Origin: Plicaturopsis crispa FD-325 SS-3
Taxonomy: Eukaryota; Basidiomycota; Agaricomycetes; Amylocorticiales; Amylocorticiaceae
Direction: 5' to 3'
Assembly (NCBI GenBank): GCA_000827205.1
Contig: KN832560.1
Span: 896,743-960,742 of the forward strand
DNA length: 64,000 bases
Below are positions 1,292 to 57,589 of the stretch, one piece after another. The notes beneath the pieces are model-generated. The model was not told the origin of the DNA. It was given only the letters and a program-made list of their open reading frames with translations, and did no database searches. Position numbers and translations under genes: made by a program. How positions within the stretch are numbered: the stretch's first letter is position 1; each line of letters begins with the position of its first letter.

Positions 1292-4196
1292 CTATCTTGT
1301 CTGAGATGCATGCTCCCAACTCCCATCCCCACTACCCGGGCTTCGTGCACGGTCATCTGGACTATCCCGCCCAGCCCCTGCTTCCAGCGAGCTGTCATGA
1401 GCATCGGGCTCGTCCTTGTAAAGGGGCGTCGGGCCAGCGCTCTGAGGGTCATCGTCATCCAAGAAGCCCTCGTGGAAACCAAGACCTCCCGGAGAACGAT
1501 CCTGAGGTCGACCACCCCGTAGGCCGGTCGACTCGTCGGCATCGTCTTCGTCGTCCGACACCTCTCCGAAAGCATCGTAAAGCTCCTTTGTGCGTGGTGC
1601 ACCTGACCCAGTGTGGCCAGGCATGGAGCTCATGGCGAGACCGTCGCCGCCACTGAGCGCAGCATAGTTAGCCCGCGTCTGGCGGGCGACGCGACGCCTC
1701 CAAAAGAATACGCCCGCAGCGATACCGAAGATCATAACGACCGCAACGGCACCGAAGAACCATTTCTTGTTGGACGCCAAGTTTGACATGTCGGAGAACC
1801 AGCCCTCATCTGGGGTAGGCGTGGCTGTGGCTTCCGCAGCGTCATCTTGTGCACCCGGGAAAGCGGGCTTGCTAGCCTCTCCTTCCGCAGTGCCGTGGTC
1901 GCCGGGAAGATGGGCGGTAGGTTTGGGATGCGATTTGGTTGCGCTAGGCCCGCCAGAACCTGTTTTCGTTGTACCATCCGGCTGCGGTGGAGGAAGTATC
2001 GAATCGAGCATGGGAGATTCATACGGCTTCGCCTTCGACGGATCAATAGTGGACCCCCAGAATTTGAGGTTCCATCCAAGGAAATAGCCTAGCTGGATGT
2101 CGCTGTTTTGGTCTGCAACACGAATAGTCCAGTCACCAACAGGATCCTCCTCCCTATAGGATGCGTTAGACCTCTTCTTAAAGACGGATAAGATATGGGG
2201 ACATACCAGTGCTTGACACTCATGAAGGTCCATCCCGGGAATCCAGTCGTAGCGGCGTCAGATTTCCGAGGAGCCGCGAGTACGCTCTTGATACCGTGTG
2301 GGCTGACAAGTTCAACTTCTACGTCTCCGCGGCGAGTATGCTTGATCCACACTTTGATCGTGACGTGCTCTAGTTTTTCGAAGTTGTTTTCCTCCAACAT
2401 CTCCTTCGTCACTGTGATGGTTTCGGTGATGCCCCCAGGCGCAATGAATTTCCCACCAGACATCTCGTCAAGGAGGTTCATCGCTCCTCCATTGATTTGG
2501 ACCGTCGGGGTTTGGAACCACGCCTGCGGCTTGACGACCTGCCACGACTGTGCGGCCTTGACGTACGCATAGGCGTCGAGGGCTCCGAATCCGTATTTGT
2601 AGCTGAACTGCCGGCCTTCCGAGATTGTGTCCCAGTCCGGATCTTCAGGGTTAACCTTCCTGGCGGTGCGTACGCAGAGGTGCTGTATATCACGCCATGT
2701 AAGATCGGGGCTATAACGAGGCGTAAGTACATATGAAATGGTGGCTGATAGAGCACGTACCGTGCTTCTAATGCAAGGGCGAATACACCGACTGCGTTTG
2801 GGGCAGCCGCGGACGTGCCGCCATGACTCTTTGAGCACTTGTCCTTGCCAATGTCGGTAGTAACCTGCGGCAGAAGTATCAGAACACAACGCCGGGTCGG
2901 AGCACAAAAATGAACCCACGATGTGTTGTCCGCTACCCGAGCTGTATGCTACGATCATGTTCGCAGCGCAAGATTCGGAATAATAAGGGTGGAGACCCTT
3001 ATAATCAATTGCCGCCACTGTCACCGAGTAGATACTATTGGTGTAGCCGTCGAAGTTGCATTGGTCACCGTGTGCGGCTCCATTGCCGCTGGCGAACACA
3101 AAGACAGAGCCCTTCCCGTCCCGACCTTTTTCTACTCCATTTACGACGGCTTTGTTGATCAGGTAACCCGGGCCCTCCATAGACTTCCCGTCATCAGGAG
3201 GTCCCCAGCTACAGCTATAGATCGAGGTGTTCTGATAGGCGTAATTTAGAGCGGCGGCTTCGTCGATGTCGGAGATAGGCCCAGAGAGGATGCGTAGGCC
3301 AGCGACTTTAGAGTTGTAGGCAATGCCAACACCGCACAGTTCATTCTTCACAGCGGCAATTTGCCCACCGCAACGCGTACCGTGATGATCGTCGAACAGA
3401 GCGGGGGTGGGAAGGTCAGTGTGGTCGTTGAAATCGTATGATCCAGACGCGTCCTAGAAATGACAGTAAGTCATCTATCCACGCAAAGAACAGTACATTC
3501 AGATTTCAAGTAACTCACGAAATTAGCTGCCAAGTCATCACTACGATAATCCAATCCGTCGTCAACAAGGGCAGAGATGACGCCCTGACCGGTGAAGCCC
3601 AGTTCCTCCCAGACTGGTGTAGGATTCATCATGTGCTGGGGGAACTCGTCGTTGGCGATATGCCATTGTTCTACGAACAGAGGGTCCTTGAAGCCCAGCC
3701 GAAGAGCGATAGCTTTTGAAGAGTTGACGCCCTGGAAGGGCTCTTCGATGATTGGGGGAGGCGCCCTGTCGAGGAGGCTGTCATCACGTTTTGTCCGTTT
3801 GCGAAGGGTTTGTGGGGCAAGGTATTTGACCGACGAGACTACGCGGCGTGCACGCTGGGTCTCAGTAGACCGGCGTGAAAACCAGGAGTCGCGCTTTGAC
3901 GCCGCTCGAGTGCGTAGGGATTGGAACAGGTCAAGTACGCGGTCGCTCTCTCCACGAGAGAGGAGCCCTGAGACAGGCTTTTCCGCCCGGACAAGCCAGT
4001 GGTCACGAAGCTCTCCAGCCTGTTCTACCACTTCTACGCCGAGAGACCGTGCGCACTCGTCCAGCGATGCGCCAGCCCGAGGATCATGCTCTATAACATA
4101 GTAATCATGGGAGGAGTAATAGCGTTTAGCTGGGGCAAGCGCGAAGGCAGTCTGCTGGACCAAGAGAGTGAGAACCAGCGTCAGCGGGAGTCGCAT
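1292..4196 (-). CDS. KEX2: Kexin (KEX2) proprotein convertase
   Basis: Golgi subtilisin-family protease that cuts secretory precursors after dibasic sites. Exons, from the start codon: 4196-3519, 3453-2920, 2864-2761, 2710-2207, 2153-1292; about 893 aa. Residues 1-20 form a signal peptide. A propeptide ends at Lys-Arg 136-137, a likely self-cleavage site. Catalytic Asp about 213 (LVDDGLDY), His about 250 (DDHHGTRCGG) and Ser about 422 (HGGTSAAAP); the oxyanion Asn sits in FASGNGA. A P-domain follows (GDWTIRVAD). A Ser/Pro/Thr-rich stalk leads to one membrane segment around residues 740-760 (FFGAVAVVMIFGIAAGVFF) and an acidic cytosolic tail, the usual kexin order. All catalytic residues are present, so it looks active. 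Confidence 0.95.
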
Positions 4197-4475
4197 CCTG
4201 TGCAGCTTGTCCGCTGGAATTAGTTATGGCTGTTGAGCTGGCGTGTAAGGACAGAAAGACGACAGCGAGCGCCTAAGACGAATAAGTGAAGGCCAAGGCC
4301 GCGCTGTGCGAAACCACAGCCACCATCGCGCAAGCGAACAGCCTCGACCGTACCAGTCGGGGGTAAGTACGACCCGCTGCAAGTAAATATTCGATGGTCT
4401 GTCAACGAGTTCAAATCACAGTTCGATTACAGGAAAAGTACAGTAAAATACATGGAAGCACTAGACGCGGTCACT

Positions 4476-7400
4476 TCATTGTGAAATCGGCTCGCAAGAT
4501 ACAAGTTCATAGCCGCGCGGGTTCTCCGGGTCGGCGTCAGCGATCGCCCAACTGTCGATAACCATGTGCATATCGGACGTTATCGTGTTCAGCGACTTGT
4601 CCATACAGAGCGCGCGATGCACTTCGGGAATGTTGCCGATCAAGGGGGCCAAGCGCCTTTCGAATTCTGCGCAGGCTGCAGCATCCTCGCGTAAGTCCGT
4701 AGGTTCAAGACCTCTTAGCGGCGTGCACTACAGAAAATCATCAGTAATACATAGATGATGGACACACTGAGACTCACATTCCCATTGGAGATGGAGACGT
4801 GGAGGTGGGTGCCGTCGCTGTCCTCCAGGCGTAAGAAAAATCGATACGACCACTGCACATGCGACTCGGCCAAGTCGTCGCAGTTAACGCAGCCTTTGCG
4901 TTTTGTTGTATCGATACTACGTTGTATATTAGTTACATAGAATGACATGATACAACCAGGTCACGTACTCCACTTTACATTTGGTGCATCGCGCTACCAC
5001 GCAGTCTTCTAAATCCAGGGGATAAAAGTCGACTACTCGGGCCTTGAGGTGCCATCGGGACGGACATTTGTCACTGCTAACGATGTCTTTGATACTGGGA
5101 AGCGCGACAATCGTATGCACATGACTGGGCGCGTTCGTAACGCTGGGGTCGCGTTTGGCGCATCGGGCGGATAGCCGGTCGCGCTTGCGTCTGAGTACGG
5201 GCACGGTTGAGCGCTATCGTAGTACCCACGGAAAATTGTGAGACTTACTGTAATAAGAGGGTGAATTCTTCGCTGCTTGTACCGCCATCTTGGAGTTTGT
5301 GGATAAGCCGTTCTTGTCCGCCCAGCTGGCCTTGCAATGTCTTCCCTCCATAGCTCTTTTTCAGCTTTAGTTTCTTTATAGAGAAGAAGCATCCTGGCTC
5401 CATGCTGTTTGCCATGGCGGCTTGCGAGTCCCACAGTATGATTTTGATAAAGCGCCCACCGAGACCACGGGACCAAGGCGCATTGGCGGATTCAGCCTCA
5501 AATTCAGGGTTATGAGAGTAATCTGTGACCCATAAATGGGCCGGCGTCCCATCCACTTTGTGAAGGAGCTAAAGAGTCATCGGGTCAGCTACTAAGAATG
5601 AGAGTCCGTGTCTGACACACTGACACACCTCGACTGTGCAATTGAAAAACTCGCTCTTCTTGTCCTCGCCGAGGAGACTGTGTTCGAACTTATTCGCTCG
5701 ATCCTCTGAAGCATCGAGGGCGGCTTCGTATTCTTTCTTTCGGCTAGGACAAGAACCGCACCGGTTAGAAAGGAGCTCGAATAACTGGAAAAAAGGAAGA
5801 ATGACACACTCTAACAATGCTTTTAGCTGGGGTTCATTTTCGAGGTCCGTGTCGTCGATCTTATGCGTTTTCTCCGGAGCCGACATCGTCCCTTCGACGA
5901 AGCCTGAGCTGGCGATCTTCACCCTGCAATTATGCAAGTACCAGAAGTCGCCGACCTGCATGGTGCGCGCTAAATCGCCAGCCTCATCCCACATCCCAAT
6001 TTTGAGTATGCACTCAGCGAGCGCCGGAGGGGACCAATCGGTGTTTGTGGGAAGTACACCAGGGGGACGTGTATAATCTGTTACATAGATCTCTGCGGTG
6101 TTGTGAGGGAAAACATGCAAAATCTAATAACGCATGGCAACATATGTCAGAAACGAGTCAATCAGCAGGGAACCGGGTGGCGTACCTCGACGGTACAGTT
6201 GAAAAACCCATTGGGAGGCGTACTAGGAGAGGTTTCGTCTAAGAGTCTGTGAATCCTCTTCGGCGTCATACCCGCTATGGCGTGCATGTTTCCGATCTGG
6301 TGCACCGTGCTCGTCTCGACTTTTCTGTCTTCGTGGATTTCCTGCCACCAACCGTGAACACGGGCACAGTATGCTAGTTCATGTGGAGACGCCTCCCAGA
6401 AGGGAGTGAATAGATGGCCATAGCCATCCGCAAGACCGGCCACCCGAGGGATATCGCCGATGTCCGGAGGAGGCGCGCTTCGCGTCTCGGGGTCGAAGAC
6501 TGCCCAACGCAACTTATTGGTATATCCGGTACCCGTTGTCCTCCCATTATGACTCTTCGGCTGGTCGGTGAAGTGCGACGAGTAAGTGTCCGGATAGATG
6601 GATGCAATCTATGATCGAACGTACTTTCAATCCGTGCAGTATGACTATCTGTCCTACGGCCACAGTGGGGAGCCATTGTTCGTATTCCTTTGTGAAACAA
6701 TTCACCATAAATCCATCATAGTTGTCGTGATTAGACGGGTCGACAACTGTAAACGCCACCGACCAGTCTGTAGCAATGACGAGAAATGGGGTGAGCGTCC
6801 GGAAGTATCAGAAGAGTACATGTTCATACCACGTAGCCCTCTAGTGGCTCTCACCTTCGGTCGGACCGAGGTTACTATTCCGACTATGTTGAATGGACTC
6901 GATTTGATGTCGCGGATTAGAAGAATATCATTCTTTGAGACCATGATCAGAATAGCAGAAGGTGAAGTTACAGCATAGATGCATACCGGACGATGGCTAC
7001 AGTCTAGCGAGTCTAACTGCAGATTAATTTGCCTCGATGGTAGGTCAGGTGCGGGAGCGAGCGCAGCTATAGGTTCTGGAGAATGAACTGGCGCGGGAGC
7101 TGGTGGGCCAGGGGCAGCGGAGGGAACAGCAGGTGGTGCAGGAGCGGGTGCAACCGTGGACGAAACATTGTCAGGCGAAGTAGACGCTAGCAATTGAGCT
7201 GCGCGCTTTTCTTCCTTTCTAAGTTTCTTCGCTTTCTTGTTCGATAGCTGTGGCCGAGCATTGGATTCCGGTTGTATGCGGTTTAACGTGGTGTTGTTGG
7301 CAGTGGATTGCACAGCAGCGATATCCGACCGTGTCCGATTATCGCCAGGGATTACAGGTCCAACGTCCGATGGTGACAGCCTCTGCTTCTTCTTGGGGTT

Positions 7401-8147
7401 GATATTTGAGGTGTCCTCGAGCAACTTGCGTTTGTTCGAATCGTCGGCTTCACGCGGAGGTGCCTGGACGGTAGTATGGATGGTGTGTGAGGGGGCCTCA
7501 AGATGTCGGTCAGCTGAGATAGGTGATGCACTGTGGGAGGTCTCGGCGGCGGGATTGCTGTTCTGCGCGGATACAACGGAACCAGTCGTCGTGGCAAGTA
7601 ATGGTGTGGAGAACCAATCATCTGCAGGGACATCTTTAGCCCGCGCATCCTCTTCTACTACGGTTACGCGTCGTAAAGGCAAGGTTAGAGCAAGGACAGA
7701 CTATCCAGATGGAGGGCCTCACTCACGTTTCCATGTGTCTACGATCTTAAAGGGTGCCCCACTTCCAAGTGGAAATTTGACCACGACACCCTCCACGTAT
7801 TTCAGAACCATATGTAGCGCGCCTATCTTGGACGTGGGTGGAACTCTTTGAATTGTCGCGCCCTTGAGTGAAATGAGGAATTCCCCCCGCGCTTTGAGGC
7901 GGGGCTCGAGTTCGTCGAAGTAGTTGCTGCATACGTCGGATAGTTCGACGTCAAAGCTGTGGTTTCCAACGGTTTTCATGTTGAATCTCAGCTTCTTGTT
8001 CTTGACGGGCCACGCCATAAAGACCTTCCCCGAGAGAAAACCTTCACTATAGCGCGTGTCGGTGTCGATGCGGTCGTATAGGTCTTTGGCACTTTTCTCG
8101 TGAGATGGATCGAATAAGTCATTTTCCTCCACGTTCACGGAAGCCAT
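4476..8147 (-). CDS. POT1: POT1-like telomere single-strand binding protein, long form
   Basis: Predicted shelterin-type protein binding telomeric G-rich single strands. Exons: 8147-7727, 7657-6987, 6932-6830, 6767-6625, 6560-6186, 6123-5810, 5743-5629, 5568-5249, 5190-4969, 4916-4778, 4727-4476; about 1024 aa, against roughly 550-630 aa for yeast and human POT1. Seen in order: an N-terminal OB-like domain (1-140), a Pro/Ala-rich linker (about 145-320), the POT1 OB1 (about 335-446; FNIVGIV..RDWSVAFTVVDPSN..ILHGLK), a linker with KLRWAVFDPETR, then two copies of an OB2-like exon (572-676, IYVTDYTRPPG; 715-820, LWVTDYSHNPE). A C-terminal OB fold follows with two CxxC pairs (CTKC, CVNC), like the zinc site in POT1 C-domains. 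Start chosen as the first ATG after the promoter. The acceptor of exon 2 could be 7654 instead. Confidence 0.85.
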
Positions 8148-8488
8148 CTAGAGAGATAAGTCCAGGACCGATAACAATTACGAGTGCGAATCAAAGGAAA
8201 AGTCGAGGGAAAGGTCGACGGATGGTGGCACGGAACTGAAACGCGGGTAGGACCCCAGAAGACGCGACGCGTTTTGTCTCCGTACTTTTACTCCGCTTCC
8301 TACTAAGTGCATAGCCTACAACAAGTTGTATTGTCTATTGAAGCAACGGAGCTGATGTCGAGTGGAGGCACGTAAACCTACAGAAACGCGTAATATAGTC
8401 CGAATACAGTGTACAGTCCAAATAATATCAATAAGTATCATGCAGCGTGTCTTACTGAGTCAGTCCCATCCGAGTTCTTAACATAGCT
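8148..8488 (-). promoter_or_regulatory. Spacer between the POT1-like genes with an ACGCGT box
   Basis: This 341-bp gap holds the promoter of the long POT1-like gene and the 3' flank of the short one. A perfect MluI-type box (ACGCGT) lies at 8267-8272, about 120 bp upstream of the long gene's ATG. In yeasts such boxes mark G1/S genes bound by MBF. I see no remnant of the OB2b or zinc-OB exons here. Confidence 0.4.
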
Positions 8489-10446
8489 TCAATTTGTCTG
8501 CCATTCCCTCTTGCGCCTGGAGAGACAATCAGTAAAACACTCTTCTATAATGATAGTTCGACCCTCATACCGTAGCAGCTCCTCGGCCGGTGCCCAGCTT
8601 CGCGAGTCTAGTTTTGTAACCTTCGACCCCCGAATGCTTGCGAGCTTGCCTTCGATGCGTCCATGGTTGTCGTGCCGGATCAAGCAGTTCTCGATCGAAT
8701 AGAGCTCGCCCGCCTGCATGCTCTGGCCGGTAACGCACTGTCCATCCCACATTTCGATCCTCAACACGCTCTTGCTCTTGTACATGTTCGCGGGATAGAA
8801 CCGGTATGAAGGCATGATCGGATCCGGATTCAGGGTGTAGTCGGTAACCCACACGCTCCAGACGTCCGAGTTCACGTTGTGGTGCGATTTGACGACCTAG
8901 CGGATTGTCGAAGCGGAGAAATAAGTACATGTCCTGAGATCATGCGGGAGGAGAACTACTTACTTCCACGACAAAATCGTAATATGCGCCAGCCTCAATG
9001 TCGCAAATGAGCCCACGGGGTCGTCCTTTCCACTGGCTGTCCACCACCGTAGATGTTATCGATTCCCACCACTGAGAAATCTCATAGCACTGTCTCAACT
9101 CGTCAGGCGTAAAGAGTTCCTGGTCCGCCGCATATCGAGCGGCGAAAAGAGGATTGAAGACCTTCCACAAGCATCCATTTTTCTTCGCCTTACCCCGAGG
9201 ATCGGTGCCCTCAGCAAGGTATCCCGTCTGGTGGCGAAGATGCCTTCAGTCCAAGAACTAAAATGGATACTGAAGCAGGAAGATGACTGACGGTTATTCC
9301 CCTCAAGATGAGCACGTCCCCGCGCTTGCAGGTTGGTAAAAGCGCCTCTTCGCTGGCAAAACATGTCAGACCGAACATTTGCTTGGACGGATCACTGAGC
9401 ATCAGAGACTGGTAGAAATCTGGACATGGCTCGGAATGAGAAACCACGTCATACTGGCTGCGAGTAGAACGACCGCTCACCTCTACTGAATCCCCTTCGA
9501 CCGACGCTGGCTACCACTCCAATTACACTTTGTAGGGTTCTGTCATCCGCTTTGAGATAGTACAGGGGAGTAAATTTATTCATCTGTAGTTCCTACAACC
9601 CCGAATGTCATCAGCCGCGTGCACAGATTCGAAGCCGAAACAGAGAAACACGTACTTCAGGAACATCAGGGGATGAGAATCGCGGGCACGAATAAGCCAG
9701 CTCCATGTCGTCGTCGGGTTCTGACGGCTCCTCTGCGATGCGGCGGTTCTGGACCTTTGCGGAGAAGTCTCTTCCGAAGGAGGAAGTGCGATCAGGGCGT
9801 CCAATATCGACACGAGCTGGTCCGCAATACAGAGACGATGAGGCGGAATCAGGGCTCGGAGAACGGTCGATAGTCAAGTCCGCCATGACCGTATCGGTAT
9901 CGTCTGCCGAGGTCACAGAATTTCCGCGCGTAGAATCGTCGAACTTGTGGTGGTCTATATCGTTCATGAATGTCATTATTTATTCAATATCTTTCTCCCG
10001 GTGTCGCTGTGTATAAATATATACTCACCAATTTTACCAAGATCGAAACGCCTGGGGAGTTCACCTATGCGCCTCGATAACAACAGCAGGGAGAGTGATA
10101 TTGTATACGACATTCGCATGGGGAGAGCACCTGGAGCAGAAGACGCGCCCGTGCGCGATAGTGTTGCGCCTTTCAAGTCGAGGAACAACGCGTCGTTTAC
10201 TTCCAAGCTGAGACCGTCGGGGAGATTGAAACAATCGCCAGAAAGCGCGATGTCGAACTTGTAAGATATATCAGAGCTCGTGGTGCGTACAGTGAATAGA
10301 CGACGCGTCGAGTGGCCTGGGGGCGGCCAAACGCGTATAATCGCGATGGCAAGATAGCCTCGCATGGATCCAGTCTTGCAGACGACATCAGCCTCGACCA
10401 GAAACGCATCGTCGAATCTATCCAGAGGTTGAGGCTGTTGACCCAT
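8489..10446 (-). CDS. POT1-like protein, short tandem paralogue
   Basis: Second POT1-like gene, directly upstream of the long one on the same strand. Exons: 10446-10029, 9954-9656, 9592-9481, 9419-9292, 9227-8964, 8896-8571, 8516-8489; about 524 aa. Domain order copies the first half of its neighbour: N-terminal OB-like domain (shared LKGAT), an acidic/Ser-rich linker, OB1 (about 250-330; VIGVVASV..RDFYQSLMLSDPSK..DVLILRGI), a linker ending YYDFVVE, and one OB2-like exon (408-515; VWVTDYTLNPDP). It stops at RRKREWQTN just where the neighbour continues into its second OB2 copy, so the zinc OB is missing. Intron positions and phases match the neighbour. One donor is GTCAGT (9291). It could be a DNA-binding-only isoform, a decayed duplicate, or a telomere protein with its own role; I cannot decide. 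Confidence 0.75.
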
Positions 10447-10595: not shown

Positions 10596-12039
10596 ATGTC
10601 CGATCTTCCACTGCCAACACTTTTCTCAAGGGCTCTCGCCGCTGCATCCAAAGCAAGCAACCTCCCAACGGCGGCGGATGGCACCCAGGTAGGGATATAT
10701 GTCTTCGAAAATGCACGAGTTTGGCTAATTTCAACGCGCTAGGAACTCATCCAGGGAGCTCTGGCCGATCTACGCCGTTTGAATTCCCGGATCGTGTCCT
10801 TGTCGCTATTTAGTCCAAACGAGACGCTCGAGGACATAGCGACGCGCGATCTGGTATTTCTGTTCGTGAGCTATGTATGTGCGGAGGTGCAAGGACGGGT
10901 GCGCACCGTGAATGGGGAGGAGCGGATAATTACTCTCAAGGAAGCGCAGGTGATTCTACTCTTTCTCATCGTGTGGACTTTATTCGGTGTTCATTACACT
11001 TGTGTCACGCAGACATATCTGAGAACATTCCTGTCCAACCTGGAGAACTACAATATCGTTCCAGAGGAAGAACGACAATTGCACGAACAGAAGGGGTCTG
11101 CGATTGGTGACCCCGCCATGCGACGTGAAACTAAAATCAAACAATACAAGAAAGAGAAGGAGCTCAGGACGCGTATTGAGGTATGTTGCCGTTTGCATGC
11201 TTTTCTCACCGATCTGACTTACGCAGGCTGTGCGCAAACGACGCCGCCAACGACCTGTGGAAGGAGCATCCACAACAGACTTTGATTTGATAGCTTCCCT
11301 CTTACCCTCTCCCTCAGCGACCTCGGCTGATGACGACGAGGATGATGACGAGACCGACGAAATTCTGCGTGAGACTGCTCTACTTCTGCTGCGCCTCACA
11401 TACGCCCAAGCGCACGCCCAGCTCGAGAGCATGGACCAGGAAACACAGATACTTCTGAACGCGCCTCCACCACCGCCGCTCCTCCAATCTCCCGGCCAGC
11501 AGGACCAGAGAGGGAAGCGCAAGGAGGAGGAAGACACTTGGAGATTGGACTCTCCAGCTACCCGGGGTGATCAAGGCCCGCTTCTGGACCCTGCGGGAAA
11601 GGTACGTTCTACCGTGTCTTCTCTGTTCTTATCTCTTTGACACTGCAAAACGTAGCCTCTCCGTCCGTTCACAATATTGTCGTCGGATGCCGCCGACCGT
11701 GCTCGGCTCCAGTCGCAGGTGTTTGGTCCAGGTCACCGTTTGCCAACGATGTCTGTCGACGAATACCTCGAAATTGAACGCCAAAGAGGCAATATCATCA
11801 CTGGCGGAGGGTCAGTCGTTCATCTCTCCTTGCTATTCGGTGCTGAACGATTGCAATTTATCAGTGCTGCGTCGGCTGCGGCACCGACAGACTCTGAGCA
11901 GCTCGCGATAGATGCTGAAGCAGATGGGACGGCTGAGGGCGCTGAGAAAGAAGAGCAGAAGCGGCTCAAGGATGAGAATTGGGCACGGTACACAGATGAG
12001 AATCCTCGAGGCGCAGGGAATACGATGAATCGAGGATGA
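10596..12039 (+). CDS. TAP42: TAP42/IGBP1, regulator of type 2A phosphatases
   Basis: TAP42 family protein that binds catalytic subunits of PP2A-like phosphatases and acts in TOR signalling. Exons: 10596-10688, 10743-10949, 11013-11180, 11227-11601, 11656-11810, 11865-12039; about 390 aa. The N-terminal half is the helical phosphatase-binding domain (FSPNETLEDIATRDLVFLFV, then TYLRTFLSNLENY, RETKIKQYKKEK). The C-terminal half holds the family signature DRARLQSQVFGPGHRLPTMS, followed by DEYLEIERQRGNI. The last intron has a GTCAGT donor and a length divisible by three (54 nt), so retention would keep the frame and add 18 residues. Another PP2A partner, RTS1, lies 40 kb away in the window. Confidence 0.93.
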
Positions 12040-26770: not shown

Positions 26771-28775
<2,005 letters not shown>

Positions 28776-47816: not shown

Positions 47817-48365
47817 TTAGTCGACCTCCTCGACGCTGGGGCCGTCCTCTGCACCAGCTCCAGGGAAGCCACCGGGTGCGCCGCCTGGTGCGCCACCAGG
47901 GAAGCCGCCGGGCGCACCGCCTGGTGCACCGCCCGCGCCGTAGAGCTTCTGCATGATCGGGTTCGCGACCGCCTCGAGCTCCTTCTGCTTCTCCTCGTAC
48001 TCCTCCTTCGACGCCTCCTGCGAGTTGTCGAGCCATTGGATGGTCTCGTCGACGGCGGACTGGAGCTTTGACTTGTCGGCAGCCTCGAACTTGTCCGCGA
48101 GCTTCTCGTCGTTTATCGAGTTGCGGAGGTTGTACGAGTACGACTCGAGAGCGTTCTTGGACTGGATACGTGCGGCAGCAGCCTCATCCTCAGCTGGAAA
48201 GGAAATATGTCAGTAAAAGATATCATAGATGGCGACGGAAGAAGACTCACCCTTGTACTTCTCGGCCTCGCTGACCATGCGCTCGATCTCCTCCTTCGAC
48301 AAGCGGCCCTTGTCGTTGGTGATCGTGATGCGGTTCGACTTTCCGGTGGTCTTGTCGGACGCGGA

Positions 48366-48398
<33 letters not shown>

Positions 48399-50014
48399 GG
48401 TGACCTCGATTTGAGGGACACCACGGGGCGCAGGGGGAATGCCGGAGAGCTCGAACTTTCCGAGGAGGTTGTTGTCCTTTGTCCGCGCACGCTCACCCTC
48501 GAAGACTTGGATGAGCACACCGGGCTGGTTGTCGGCGTAGGTGGAGAAGGTCTCGGACTTCTTGGTGGGGACGGTCGTGTTGCGCTTGATGAGCGCAGTC
48601 ATGACACCACCAGCAGTCTCGATACCGAGGGAAAGAGGGGCAACATCGAGGAGGAGGAGGTCCTGGGTCTTCTCGGAGGTGTCACCGGAAAGAATGGCGG
48701 CCTGGACAGCGGCACCGTAGGCGACAGCCTCATCGGGGTTGATCGACTTGTTGGGCTCCTTGCCGTTGAAGAAGTCGGAGACGAGCTTGACGATACGGGG
48801 GATACGGGTGGAGCCACCAACGAGGACGATTTCGTGGACGTTGGACTTGTCGATCTTGGAATCCCGGAGGACCTTCTCGACGGGCTCGAGGGTGCTGCGG
48901 AAGAGGTCCTGGCACAATTCCTCGAAACGGGCACGGGTGAGGGAGGTGTAGAAGTCGATACCCTCGAAGAGAGAGTCGATTTCGATGGAGGTCTGGGTGG
49001 CGGAGGAGAGGGTACGCTTGGCACGCTCGCAAGCAGTGCGGAGACGACGGAGAGCACGAGGGTTCGAAGAGAGATCTAGATGATGTAAAGTTAATCAGTA
49101 TGGGTGTTCACTAAAGAAAGGAATCACGTTGCACATACCCTTCTTGTTCTTGCGCTTGAACTCCTGGACAAAGTGGTTGACGAGACGGTTGTCAAAGTCC
49201 TCACCACCCAAGTGAGTGTCACCGGCAGTGGCCTTCACCTCGAAGATACCCTCCTCGATGGTGAGGAGGGAGACATCGAACGTTCCACCTCCAAGATCGA
49301 AGATGAGAACGTTGCGCTCGCCGACGACCTTCTTGTCAAGACCGTAGGCGATGGCAGCAGCGGTGGGCTCGTTGATGATACGGAGGATGTTCATTCCAGA
49401 GATAGTTCCCGCATCCTTGGTTGCCTGACGCTGCGAGTCATTGAAGTACGCAGGGACGGTGACAACAGCGTTTTGAACGGTGGTTCCGAGATACGACTCG
49501 GCGGTCTCCTTCATCTTGAGGAGGACCATAGAGGAGATTTCTTCGGGAGACTACAAAAACAAAATTTAGCGATCTGCGAGAACAAGACAAGTGCCACTAT
49601 GAACTTACGAATTCTTTCGTCTCCCCGCGGTACTCGATCTGGACGTAAGGCTTTCCAGCCTTGTCGATGACCTTGAAAGGGAAGTGCTTCATGTCCGCCT
49701 GAACCTCGGAGTCGGTGAACTTGCGACCGATGAGACGTTTTGCGTCAAACACGGTGTTGTGGGGGTTCATCGCGACTTGGTTCTTGGCGGCATCGCCGAT
49801 GAGACGCTCGTTGTCGGAGAAGGAGACATACGAAGGCGTTGTTCGGTTACCCTGGTCGTTGGCGATGATCTCAACACGATCGTTTTGCCAGACACCGACA
49901 CAGCTAGATAAAATTGACTATGGTCAGCATCGGGGCGATCTCAAAGCATAAAAATGCGACTCACGAGTAGGTAGTACCGAGATCGATACCGATGGCTTTT
50001 GAAGACGACGACAT
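47817..50014 (-). CDS. SSA: Cytosolic Hsp70 (SSA type)
   Basis: ATP-dependent chaperone of the cytosol and nucleus. Exons: 50014-49965, 49903-49609, 49550-49139, 49075-48251, 48193-47817; about 652 aa. All Hsp70 signatures are present: [46 protein letters not shown], a complete nucleotide-binding domain, the linker [15 protein letters not shown], the substrate domain and the helical lid. The C-terminus has GGAPGGFPG repeats and ends EEVD, the TPR-cochaperone docking signal of cytosolic members. Codon use is highly biased, which opens long frames on the other strand. Regulation is probably by heat shock; see the upstream site. Confidence 0.97.
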
Positions 50015-50617: not shown

Positions 50618-53138
50618 TTAGGACGCTTGTCTATGTGGACGAGGGCCGCCAGTCCCCAATTGTTCATCAAGGCTTCTGTGCGCCTGGAGGTCTCGTATAA
50701 CGCTCGGATCAACTGCGGGGACAATGTAAGCAAGGACCAACCCAGTGAAAGGTGCACTACTAACCAGGAAGCACGCTTTTCCGGCGCACATGTGGGCTCT
50801 GACTCGTCGGCGAGTGATCAACGCCCACCTCCGGGAACGGTCTCTGAAAAGCCCTCCATCGTTAGCTCGTCGCGCCTGTGCGTCTTGTATCACTCACATC
50901 AAGTCCCGGATCTGCCGTGGGTACGCGCTCAATGCCACTATCATCAAGGTCCCCGGGAACATCTCCGTCGATCGACGCGGCATTGAGTTCCATTGAGAGC
51001 TCCATGATGTCTGCATCGTCGATGGACGAGGGTGGAGGCGGGGGCGCGTGCGGAATCTCGTGATAGCCCTCGGGGAGCTTGCCGCCAGGCGCGTTGTGAA
51101 GGGCTAGTTCTCGCATTTTTTGCCATGCCTCGTACCGGTCGACGGCATGTTGGCGTTCTCTATCGGACGTAGATGGGTTAAGTTATCTCGATGACAAGTG
51201 GCAAAGCGAGTTCCTACGCACTCAAGTTTTCGCTGCTTGTATTGCTGCATCGACTCATCGAAAAGATCTGGATTGATCTCCATGAATAATTTTAGAGCAT
51301 TATATACCATGCCGTGTATAGTCCTACGATTCCAGGTTAGAGGTGCACGCACATATGATGAACCGACCGTACTCACCGATTCCAATGTGATTTCGAATTT
51401 GTGTACAGGGCAGGGAATACGATCGGCAGTATGACCGCCAAGTTGTCGCTCATGAGGTTCACGACGTACTCGTTGTTCCAATACAGGAGAGCACGTTCCG
51501 CAACCTGGAAGTGCTGGCTGTTTATGCATCGTGCTAGCTGCTGGAACAGTGGGACTTGGATCTTTTGGAACTCCACTGGGTCGGTCACGTCAAGCACTTC
51601 TTCAACCTCGTTGAGGAACATGACCTCCTTTGGCGAGTTGACCTTGGGCCAATACTTGAGTAGGCCCATCATGACCTCCTCTGCTAGTGACGGGTCTTTC
51701 TCTAGGAACTGCACGACGCAGTACGCGAGCTGCGGGTGGTAGAGGGAGAGGCTCTTGACCTTGTGCAAGGGGATAAGCGCGCGCGTCAAAAACGTCTTGT
51801 GTTCCTCCTTGAGCGGCAGCGCAAACCCGTTGATGATGGACCCGAGAATCTCAAGCAGCTCCGCGATGCCGTTGTGCCGCTCGGTCTCGTACACAAAGTG
51901 GAAAAAGACGTTGTTGATGGAGCGCCGGATGAACGCGCGGAGGTTGAGGAACTTGCCGTATATGCGGTGGAGCGTGGTCTTGAGAAAGTCGCGCTCGCGC
52001 GGATCCTCCGAGTCGAAGAGCTCGAGGAGGTTGAGCACGAAGGCCTGGTCGATGTAGCGCTTGGCGAGGTTCGTGTTGAAGTCCGGGCTCTCGACGAAGC
52101 GGAGGAAAAACTCGTAGACGACCTGGAGGTGCGGCCACGCGAGCTCGAGCACGGGCTCGTCCTCCTCCGGGTCGAAAGCGTCGCCCGTCGGATTGACGGG
52201 CGGGGGTATGGAGCGGAAAAGGTTGGTGGCAAACTAAAGAGGAGGAGGAGAGTCAGGACACGCGGATGCGGACGCGCCATCGGGACACGCACCATGCCCA
52301 CCACCTCGGGGTATACGTTTTCGGTGATGACGCCGCGTTGAGTGGTGATGTACTCGAGCATCTCGTGCAGCGTCTGCGCCTTGATCTGCTTCCCCTTGAG
52401 TTCCGCGTTGGGGTCGTTGAAGTCGAACAAGACGCGACATTGGTTCAGTTTCTTGATAAACAGCTGCGGACGTTCCGTGGGCGGCGTTTCTGGCTGACGA
52501 TGAGCACACCCCCCTCCCGGAACGGACTGTGCGGCTTACCCATAAACGCTGGCAGTCGCTCGATCTCCACTTTCTCGGTGACCACGAAGCGGCTACTCCG
52601 CTGCTTGCGAGGCGGCTTTCCGATGGGGCCTATCGTGTCCTTGGGACCGGCCCGCAGGCGATTGAGGGTTCCAGCGCGAGGCGGCTGACCGGGACCGAGA
52701 CCGCTGTGGTCTATGCCGAGCGGGGTGCGTTCGGGCGATCCAAAGCCGACGCCTCTGGGTTCCGCGGGCGCATCGGAGCTCACGACGACTATGGGAGGAG
52801 CGGGGGATGGGTTATCGGAGGTGCCGTGTCTGCGATCGGGCGTAGCGGGGCCACTGCTGGCGGGAGAGGACGAGCGATTCGACGGCAAGGAATGGTTGCT
52901 GGAGTTGTTGTTGGAGAGATTGGAGAGGCTAGCCCCGGCAGAGTTGGGCTGCGGGAGCGTCTTGGGCGGTGGAGGCGGGGCGGCGGCGGCGGCAGCAGCA
53001 GCAGCGGCCGCACTCTTGGACTCTTTCTTTGAAGCGCTCGAATCCTTTCTGTTGAGCTGGTAAGAGCGTGTCAATACGCGTTTGAGATGTGTGGAACCCA
53101 AAAAGTGAGAGTACCAGAGTTTTCTTGAGGCCCTTCAT
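50618..53138 (-). CDS. RTS1: PP2A regulatory subunit B56 family (RTS1)
   Basis: B56 (B'/PPP2R5) subunit that directs protein phosphatase 2A to substrates. Exons: 53138-53115 (8 codons, MKGLKKTL), 53056-52540, 52489-52293, 52233-51377, 51323-51222, 51159-50898, 50843-50765, 50712-50618; about 710 aa. The N-terminal 170 residues are low-complexity, with a run of about 12 alanines followed by prolines and Ser/Asn-rich sequence. The B56 core starts at [18 protein letters not shown] and shows [107 protein letters not shown] and [20 protein letters not shown]. The C-terminal tail [17 protein letters not shown] is only recovered if the last two introns are spliced; an unspliced reading stops early near 50862. 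Confidence 0.94.
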
Positions 53139-55472: not shown

Positions 55473-57589
55473 TCAGTTCTTGATGAGCTTCTCCAGCGCG
55501 TCCATAGAGTATGCTGCAGAATAACAAGTGAGTTGAGCAGCAAACCCAATTGCGACAACAGGTGTACTAACATTTTGGCCGTTCGATGGGCAGTCCGAGG
55601 GCACGCGCCCATACGAGCTGTGTTAGCGCCCCAAGTGCTAAGATACGATAAAGTATTGCTTGAATGAGTGGGATCCGTAAACGGAACGCAGAAGAACATA
55701 CCTCTCGAAACACCGAATATCACGGTGTAGTACTATCACGGGTAGGAAAGTACAATTAGCTGACAAGTCGACAATTGGTTCGAAGTTCATTCCATACCTT
55801 GAATTCAGTAAGACCGTAGTGGTACAACACGCAGCCAGAGGTAGCGTCCACGTTAGGGAAGGGATTTTTGGTCTACAAATATTGAGGTCAATTGAATGGC
55901 AGGGCTACATATAGATTACGATATAATTTACCTTTCCGTGCTCTGTCAGAACGCCGGGTGCAACTTCGTATGTCTGCAGCATGTGAGATATGAGCAACAT
56001 ACAAGTGCAACAGATTCTGAGCTGCTAACCTTCTTGACGAGCTGGATGATAGGACTGTCCTGGAGATCGGGTCGCGAGTCGCAGAATTCCTGGAGAGCAA
56101 TGAACCTAGGATCGGGGCTCCTCAAGACGCCATGCCCATAGCTGTTGTTCGACGCAGTGTCATTACAAAACAGGTTCGCAAGGAGAGATAAACGGGCTGA
56201 CCCTGGAACCACCTGGCCACTCTTGAGTGTGCGCCAGAGATATTCCTTGATGTTATCGTGCGTGATGTTGTCGCCAATCTCCTTCTGCATGGCAAGTTGC
56301 CAGCGGAGAACCTCTTGGTTTGCAAGCCTGGCACGATACATGAGGCACATGCCCCTTTATAGTACAGTAAAAAACTTACCCGTGAAGAGGGCCTGCGAGG
56401 GCGAAGAGTGCAGCGGAGTAGGACAGGTAAGGGTCCGAAAGGGTGGAGCCAACCAGATCTGCGCGAAACCATTCGTCAATAACTGGAAACGGCAAAAACA
56501 GAAAGACTTACGGGCGGTGTGCGCCGAGGCATTTCCTCCTTCGTGGTCACCGTGGAGTGCAATGTACAGTCGAAGGTACTCGGTCAAATCTTTGTTGTCT
56601 CCGTAACCAAGCTGGTTTACGTAGTTGCCTGCGCGCACGTTAGAATTATAGCAGCGAAGCGATACAATACGACACTCACCGACGAGGTCGAGGTCCTTGT
56701 TGATAGCAGGCAGTGGTTGTCCCGGACGGTACACGTTACGGTAGATACGTGCAGCCAATGCCGGGAGTCGGGCAATGAGATTGATGCAGTCATCCAATGT
56801 GTGAGACCAGTATTCGGTCTTCTTGATGCCCTTCTCATACGCAGCCTGGAAGGAGCTGTCGCGGTTCAAGGCAGCAACACCGATCCCAAGCTGGGTCATC
56901 GGATGAAGGGTCGCCGGCAAAGAGTCCAAGAGCTGCTCGACAAATTGCGGGAGTTCGCCCTTCTCTGCGAGTTCACGAGACAGAGCGCGGGTCTGTGCTT
57001 CCGTTGGTACCTGGCCGGTCAGCAGCAGCCAGAGCATGCTTTCGGCGATGATTTCCTTGCCGCCTGGAGCTGGCGTGAGTTGTTTTTGGCAGTCAGGAAT
57101 GGTCAGTCCGTGGAAACGGATGCCCTAGAGTGATCTCCGTCAGTTTCAATCTCGCATTATTCGATCCGAGAGGGTCGCACCTCGTTGGGATCAAGCACAG
57201 ATGCCTCCCATAGCATGGCTTTGAGCCCTCGCATGCCGCCCACAATGTGCTCGACCTAACAACCTCAGCATAAGGTAATACAAAGTATGTTATGACCTAC
57301 CTTGACGTCGCCCACAACAGCCTGTCCATGCTCGGCTTTCTATAAACGCGGGCCCGGTCAGAGGCGTAGCTAGGAACGGGCAACTCAGAAAGGTACCAAT
57401 TTCTTGAGCTGAGCTTGCTTAGCAGGAATCACTTCTTGCAGCGTTTCTTTCAGTGTCTGCTGAAAGTTCAGATCATGAACCTCGAATGCGGGGTAAACGG
57501 CTCACTTTGGTCGAAGCCAGCCTTCTGAAAGAGCTATAGGACGCATTCCTAGGAGTGGATTTCGCGAGCAAGCTGGTGCGTGCAAACAT
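55473..57589 (-). CDS. CIT1: Citrate synthase, mitochondrial
   Basis: Condenses acetyl-CoA and oxaloacetate in the first step of the TCA cycle. Exons: 57589-57506, 57459-57397, 57339-57301, 57255-57181, 57124-56680, 56628-56512, 56458-56380, 56327-56202, 56141-56030, 55973-55932, 55872-55798, 55732-55702, 55637-55572, 55513-55473; about 464 aa in 14 exons. The presequence [20 protein letters not shown] is Arg/Ser-rich and lies wholly in exon 1. Active-site regions: AGPLHGLANQEV (His), VVPGYGHGVLR (His) and [14 protein letters not shown] (Asp). Other marks: [29 protein letters not shown], and the end [13 protein letters not shown]. No peroxisomal targeting signal at the C-terminus, so it is the mitochondrial form. 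Shares a 236-bp divergent promoter with SEC66. Confidence 0.96.

Follow-up and report, generated by a model that had tools for sequence, protein, structure and literature searches.

The two POT1-like genes described here lie in tandem at positions 4476-10446 of a 64,000-nucleotide stretch of the Plicaturopsis crispa FD-325 SS-3 genome (contig KN832560.1, positions 896,743 to 960,742 of the forward strand; the whole stretch is called the window below), and are best compared with the Pot1 proteins of Ustilago maydis and Schizosaccharomyces pombe. The latter species has a single Pot1 gene. In U. maydis Pot1, G-strand DNA is bound by OB1-OB2 and Rad51 by OB-N and OB12; in basidiomycete Pot1 the OB-N domain lies within an extension of ∼200-350 residues ahead of OB1, and zinc motifs have been described in basidiomycete OB3 (PMC9119445). 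In S. pombe, OB3 is the Tpz1-binding domain (PMC9333443). Duplicated POT1 genes have been described as mouse POT1a/POT1b, Arabidopsis POT1a/b and Tetrahymena Pot1a/b (PMC4748036), and the mouse duplicates have split roles (PMC8448735).

Both genes of the window are on the minus strand, with B followed by A in the direction of transcription and 341 bp between them (8148-8488); the coordinates, strand and spacing given by an initial annotation of this DNA, made from the sequence alone, were all correct. Gene B, the short POT1 paralogue, extends from 10446 to 8489 in seven exons (10446-10029, 9954-9656, 9583-9481, 9419-9292, 9227-8964, 8896-8571 and 8516-8489) and would encode 521 residues. Downstream of it lies the long POT1, gene A (8147-4476), predicted to encode 1024 residues from 11 exons, namely exons 1-6 at 8147-7727, 7657-6987, 6932-6830, 6767-6625, 6560-6186 and 6123-5810 and exons 7-11 at 5743-5629, 5568-5249, 5190-4969, 4916-4778 and 4727-4476. 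We consider it rather probable that A is a shelterin Pot1 with a doubled OB2 and that B is a working, fast-evolving paralogue without OB3 that binds single-stranded DNA.

The spliced product of gene A matches the Pfam family POT1 (PF02765) at residues 375-481 (1.4e-14, 54.5 bits, cut-off 29) and the family POT1PC (PF16686) in two stretches (1.1e-24), and that of gene B matches POT1PC at residues 389-520 (E 9.4e-11, 42.3 bits, cut-off 27.2). Searched against the PDB, A retrieved S. pombe Pot1 (7cuh, 1.6e-10) and two more S. pombe Pot1 constructs; a fourth match, ApcG at E 0.12, was rejected as noise. A profile of the three OB2s of the window, containing no outside POT1, gave nine PDB matches, all to POT1 chains (S. 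pombe Pot1 1.5e-9, human POT1 7.7e-4), and a second profile that included the S. pombe sequence found human POT1 at 1.2e-11, together with one RNase P chain at 0.6. A pairwise blastp between the OB2 of B and S. pombe Pot1 gave E 0.002. When the genome was scanned in six frames, PF02765 was returned at one place and PF16686 at two, all three in gene A; the exons of B are singly too weak for such a scan, exon 6 alone scoring 18.2 bits, below the PF16686 cut-off. Protein searches of the 33.2-Mb genome (49 contigs) returned 11 places with A as query and nine with B, all within the two genes, and found no third POT1 copy. Searches of virus, bacteria and archaea collections for outside relatives, with A exon 8 and B exon 6 against viral contigs and the OB2 alignment against genome contigs, gave 3, 8 and 30 pattern matches, respectively. 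None of them was confirmed, which is expected of such collections, the genome contigs containing no relatives of this genome. Judged by these matches, A and B both belong to the POT1 family; lacking OB3 (see below), B is a paralogue within that family and not a full shelterin POT1.

The two genes have a common origin. B matched A by blastp over OB1-OB2 (78.2 bits, E 4e-19, 25% identity), with separate matches in the N-terminal domain (4e-8) and between the OB2 of B and the second OB2 of A (4e-7). Since 300 shuffled versions of B reached no more than 28.5 bits against A, chance similarity is excluded. All six introns of B have the phases of the first six of A (1,0,1,0,0,2), and introns 3-6 each occupy an identical column in both genes (offset 0) in three alignment modes, whereas introns 1 and 2, which lie within poorly alignable stretches, are offset by 4 and 28 columns, respectively; the matching intron positions and phases first reported thus hold for all six phases but for only four of the six columns. 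On this evidence, A and B are tandem duplicates of one POT1 gene that have diverged widely, in agreement with the local duplication originally proposed. Allelic or haplotype copies were rejected as an explanation of the pair, being contradicted by 25% identity.

Gene A contains two OB2s. The first (OB2a; 5810-6257, start approximate) is formed by the end of exon 5 (FFNCTVE) and exon 6 (YVTDYT, MWD), and the second (OB2b; 5249-5692, start approximate) by the later part of exon 7 and exon 8 (WVTDYS, LWD). The frames of exons 6 and 8 each match PF16686 on their own (8.8e-9 and 35.9 bits; 7.1e-9 and 36.2 bits; cut-off 27.2), the six-frame genome scan with this family returned both places, and the two OB2s are 32% identical over 145 columns (E 5e-17). 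Each has a phase-0 intron after NCTVE, where the next residue is I in OB2a and L in OB2b, and next a phase-2 intron at LL.RK; of these four introns, 5, 7 and 8 were recovered in all nine settings of the homology-blind test described below, and intron 6 in some of them. Exon 7 (5629-5743; flanking intron phases 2 and 0) is apparently chimeric, since in alignments its start resembles the OB2-OB3 linker (RKKEY) and its end the OB1-OB2 linker (FFNCTVE). An RK-rich stretch follows OB2a, OB2b, the OB2 of B and that of S. pombe. Intron 6 of A (66 nt) is open, which puts OB2a and OB2b in one frame whether it is spliced or retained.

In gene A, OB1 and the OB1-OB2 linker occupy exons 3-5 (6186-6932), where the PF02765 match lies and where the frame of exon 4 alone scores 5.8e-8. 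The OB3 region lies in exons 9-11 (4476-5190) and contains the candidate zinc ligands CTKC and CVNC (residues 889 and 904); as this region has no Pfam and no PDB match, the name OB3 is based on its position and its cysteine pairs. The domain order of A, as predicted, is OB-N, OB1, OB2a, OB2b, OB3, and the second OB2 sets A apart in its architecture, but not in its descent, from a POT1 with a single OB2.

Gene B has one OB2, formed by the end of exon 5 and exon 6 (WVTDYT, MWD; 8571-8997, start approximate) and seen by PF16686 on the spliced protein. The shared OB2-like exon WVTDYT..NP of the initial annotation is as quoted in B, but A has two such exons, YVTDYT (exon 6) and WVTDYS..NP (exon 8). 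Exon 7 of B (8489-8516) begins the OB2-OB3 linker (RKREWQTN) and then stops, with no OB3; B thus ends eight codons into the post-OB2 linker exon as it is found in A, and no remnant of OB2b or OB3 is recognisable in the 341 bp behind it (8148-8488; best tblastn E 0.37). Intron 6 of B (54 nt) is open, and its retention would add just 18 residues. Because OB3, the Tpz1/TPP1-docking domain in relatives, is missing, B probably works without OB3-TPP1 docking. The claim of two POT1-like proteins therefore holds at the level of the family, but the two are not equivalent, both the second OB2 of A and the missing OB3 of B having been overlooked.

OB1 and the OB1-OB2 linker of B lie in exons 3-5 (8964-9583), which are 27% identical to OB1 of A over 146 columns (E 3.6e-10). 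The POT1 OB1 motif pair of the initial annotation is present in both genes, reading RDWSVAFTVVDPSN in A and RDFYQSLMLSDPSK in B. By alignment, the Asp residues that correspond to D64 and D269 of S. pombe are retained in B; D64 contacts DNA. The OB1-OB2 part of B is basic (isoelectric point 8.4) and the OB1-OB2a part of A acidic (5.7).

Ahead of OB1, which starts at about residue 365 in A and 240 in B, the two proteins have a common N-terminal domain. It is encoded by exon 1 of A (7727-8147) and exon 1 of B (10029-10446), both containing LKGAT as first noted, and the two are 32% identical over 87-88 residues (E 4e-8 and 3e-10). Exon 1 of B gave no Pfam match. Structure predictions for two single-exon pieces, built on two and three sequences, reached a mean predicted local distance difference test score of 37.9, the value for this domain, and 48.1, which is too poor to use. 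The N-terminal OB-like domain proposed at the outset does sit where OB-N has been described for most basidiomycete Pot1s (PMC9119445), and an OB-N-like domain would accordingly be an already known feature of these proteins, not a new one.

The exon models of A and B were first drawn by eye, each with the other gene in view. As such models are biased by sight of the other gene, we derived the introns anew with an exon chainer blind to homology, which used codon scores trained outside both genes, hand-set splice weights, a supplied start codon and introns of 48-90 nt, in nine settings (three training sets by three intron costs). All six introns of B were recovered in eight settings and five of six in the other, and no setting added more than one extra intron, which lay in exon 1. 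For A, between five and nine of the ten introns were recovered according to the setting, with 0-6 extra, and introns 1, 5, 7, 8 and 10 were found in all nine. The splice model of B is thus robust to the homology-blind test, and that of A is robust in part only. With the start left free, the start of A was unchanged and that of B shifted to an upstream ATG at 10597; the position of the B start codon is not certain. The sequence immediately before the ATG of A (minus strand, 8148-8180), TTATCTCTCTAG, looks like a good 3′ splice site, and A may have an intron in its 5′ untranslated region that ends at the start codon. At least three introns are multiples of three without an in-frame stop (A6, 66 nt, 5744-5809; B6, 54 nt, 8517-8570; A2, 54 nt, 6933-6986), so that their retention would keep the frame open.

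Codon scores were also compared across all six frames. The first training set included one open reading frame antisense to an HSP70 gene and two without a Pfam match, one of the latter being the N-terminal part of a kexin-like gene; because of the HSP70-antisense frame, cleaner sets weigh more. With the cleaner sets the introns of B were upheld, those of A in part, and the codon evidence for B weakened. The clean set comprised five Pfam-confirmed open reading frames (1426 codons). For gene A the assigned frame was the best of six in 11 of 11 exons with either set, and in 9 of 11 when stops were ignored; for gene B it was the best in six of seven with the first set.

Several results weigh against the reading of A as a shelterin Pot1 with a doubled OB2 and of B as its working paralogue. 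On the side of the gene models, introns 2, 3, 4, 6 and 9 of A were recovered in only some blind settings, intron 4, like introns 3-6 generally, was picked with B in view, and the assigned frame of B was the best in only five of seven exons with the clean set and in four of seven ignoring stops. On the side of family membership, OB1 of B has no PF02765 match at E≤1 on the spliced protein, and its identity therefore depends on the match to A; of the hidden Markov model check suggested for both proteins, POT1 and POT1PC were confirmed for A and POT1PC for B, but not POT1 for OB1 of B. Searched alone against the PDB at E values of up to 5, B retrieved no chain of POT1, its seven matches (E 0.41-3.8) being rejected as chance. 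By alignment, none of the three OB2s keeps Trp223, a stacking residue in the OB2 of S. pombe. The OB1 loop of B ahead of the RD[WF] motif, which adjoins residues that are DNA-contacting in S. pombe, is a net four residues shorter than that of A (a five-residue gap and one insertion), and with this shortened loop B may have lost telomeric specificity. With human OB2 added, a five-sequence tree grouped OB2a with OB2b at 56% bootstrap, the approximately unbiased (AU) test rejecting neither alternative (0.19, 0.30), and in the OB2 quartet (AU 0.08, 0.32) the grouping of OB2a with the OB2 of B was excluded only by resampling of estimated log-likelihoods and not by the AU, Kishino-Hasegawa or Shimodaira-Hasegawa tests. 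On these trees the OB2 doubling and the gene duplication may have occurred in either order. Finally, no TPP1 in the genome reached the Pfam cut-off (best E 0.045); since TPP1 is fast-evolving and was searched exon by exon, this negative says little.

The shortened loop and the loss of the OB1 family score would fit a B that works off telomeres, as a general cofactor for single-stranded DNA or Rad51, or by binding a different sequence once G-strand specificity had been lost. Its basic OB1-OB2, compared with the acidic OB1-OB2a of A, would suit such a role, as would the binding of Rad51 by OB-N and OB12 in U. maydis (PMC9119445). However, OB2 of B is still recognised as POT1PC at 9.4e-11 and the two Asp equivalents are in place, and we regard an off-telomere B as possible but doubtful.

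We are similarly sceptical that the paralogy is ancient, predating the fungal class, with B-type genes widespread and unannotated and no local event in this lineage. A and B are 25% identical over the aligned DNA-binding part, near the 23% between A and S. pombe Pot1 (29 and 25%, respectively, in a MAFFT alignment), as such a history would predict. The branch lengths in a three-sequence tree are 0.54 for A, 1.59 for B and 1.91 for S. pombe, the B branch being about three times that of A, so that fast evolution can explain part of the A-B distance and the long branch may inflate the apparent age; in a Tajima-type count over 240 ungapped columns, A agreed with S. pombe at 32 and B at 22, a difference that is not significant (p 0.22). 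Moreover, A and B are still adjacent and share introns, and the available portions of PMC9119445, PMC7952879 and PMC11185503 mention no second Pot1 for basidiomycetes. That the duplication is old, as the initial annotation stated, is plausible, but its age is less secure than it appeared, given how much of the divergence B itself may have contributed.

A decaying B, open by chance or recently silenced and without function, is improbable. Its long branch (1.59 against 0.54), missing OB3, an OB1 unseen by Pfam and the modest codon scores (five of seven exons) are what decay would leave, but at such divergence the frames of a dead copy should no longer be open. At 25% identity, six usable splice-site pairs, recovered in eight of nine blind settings, and 521 open codons are unexpected, and the G+C content at third codon positions of B (0.61) equals that of the first training open reading frames (0.61). 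Least credible are read-through transcripts in which B exons are spliced to 3′ exons of A, giving alternative 5′ halves of one Pot1: exon 6 of B (8571) ends in phase 2 and exons 7 (5743) and 9 (5190) of A start in phase 2, in frame, but B ends in a last exon and stop of its own, blind-recovered in most settings, and A has its own ATG. A B-A fusion protein through the start exon of A was rejected, since B has its own stop and exon 6 joined to the ATG of A is out of frame.

The preferred reading, a shelterin Pot1 with a doubled OB2 beside a working paralogue, would have arisen as follows. The POT1 gene of an intron-rich fungus, whose OB-N-like domain, zinc-motif OB3 and short introns all suit a basidiomycete, would have been duplicated in tandem, the downstream copy, A, retaining OB-N, OB1, OB2 and OB3. 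Its OB2 would then or earlier have been doubled by tandem duplication of a segment that begins within the OB1-OB2 linker exon and ends within the OB2-OB3 linker exon, leaving the chimeric exon 7. The upstream copy, B, could have been made in one step by a partial tandem duplication whose 3′ boundary fell in the linker exon, since such an event gives just this geometry, a truncated copy upstream that ends in the linker exon; equally possible is that the whole gene was duplicated and that B then lost its 3′ end.

By analogy with its relatives, A would use OB1 and OB2a/OB2b to bind the telomeric G-strand, possibly covering a longer footprint, and OB3 to join shelterin. B would not be a shelterin subunit but would work on single-stranded DNA, telomeric or other, perhaps partnering Rad51 through OB-N. 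The domain content of the pair suggests that the two genes share the work of capping the single-stranded chromosome ends. More tentatively, as a possible but doubtful extension, one may picture a two-Pot1 telomere in which a five-OB A supplies the longer G-strand footprint and the link to shelterin and a TPP1-free B coats single-stranded telomeric DNA or passes it to Rad51. If this were true, capping and recombination would be split between tandem paralogues that arose through two duplications, both terminating in one linker exon.

The genome carries TTAGGG-type telomeric repeats, four tandem units of TTAGGG giving 13 overlapping matches in six contigs. The arrays lie at the very end of C47, at most 65 bases from the end of C32, within ∼430 bases of the end in C1 and C49 (∼415 in C49), and well inside C17 and C19. 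At the left end of C1 a CCCTAA array (421-482), about 425 bases in, grades into CGCTAAC variants and then into other sequence. A telomerase reverse transcriptase is also present (RNA-binding domain 2.4e-15).

Within the window the pair is flanked by a kexin-like protease gene (2092-4223, minus strand; Peptidase_S8 and P-domain by Pfam in 2092-3453) and a TAP42-like gene (10743-12039, plus strand; Pfam, 10743-11285 scanned), and the order kexin-POT1-POT1-TAP42 offers a synteny handle for surveys. Further away are ordinary neighbours identified by Pfam, all on the minus strand: an ATP synthase alpha/beta-type subunit (27928-28503), HSP70 (48213-49094), a PP2A B56 subunit (51376-52233) and citrate synthase (56360-57124). 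An open frame of 335 codons (48072-49076, plus strand) runs antisense to the HSP70 gene, from which it follows that long open frames in the window need not be genes.

Among the open-licence PMC papers listed in literature searches there was neither a fungal Pot1 gene pair nor a five-OB fungal Pot1, which does not imply their absence from print. The POT1 duplicates of rodents, plants and ciliates have been used to learn which POT1 tasks are separable, and the pair described here would add a natural case in which DNA binding and shelterin assembly are separated, within a group amenable to gene deletion. That both copies keep the N-terminal domain while one is without OB3 bears on why basidiomycete Pot1 retains OB-N.

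Among known systems, the mouse, Arabidopsis and Tetrahymena POT1 pairs belong to separate lineages and probably keep comparable domain sets, whereas here one copy is without OB3 and the other has a doubled OB2. C. elegans POT-1 and POT-2, which are single-OB proteins of the POT1 family, resemble B in their reduced OB set, as do other partial POT1 proteins, but B retains the N-terminal domain, OB1 and OB2. S. pombe Pot1 (7cuh, 4hid; PMC9333443) is like A in that OB1-OB2 align along the whole DNA-binding part (1.6e-10), and it shares the RK-rich linker after OB2 with both A and B; it differs in having no OB-N and a single OB2, ascomycete Pot1s having three OB folds (PMC9119445). U. maydis Pot1 has OB-N before OB1, OB1-OB2 for DNA binding and an OB3, zinc motifs being described for basidiomycete OB3, and A has regions that correspond to these, but U. 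maydis and most basidiomycete Pot1s have four OB folds, from which A differs by its second OB2, and the available part of that account mentions no second Pot1 gene (PMC9119445), unlike the pair of P. crispa.

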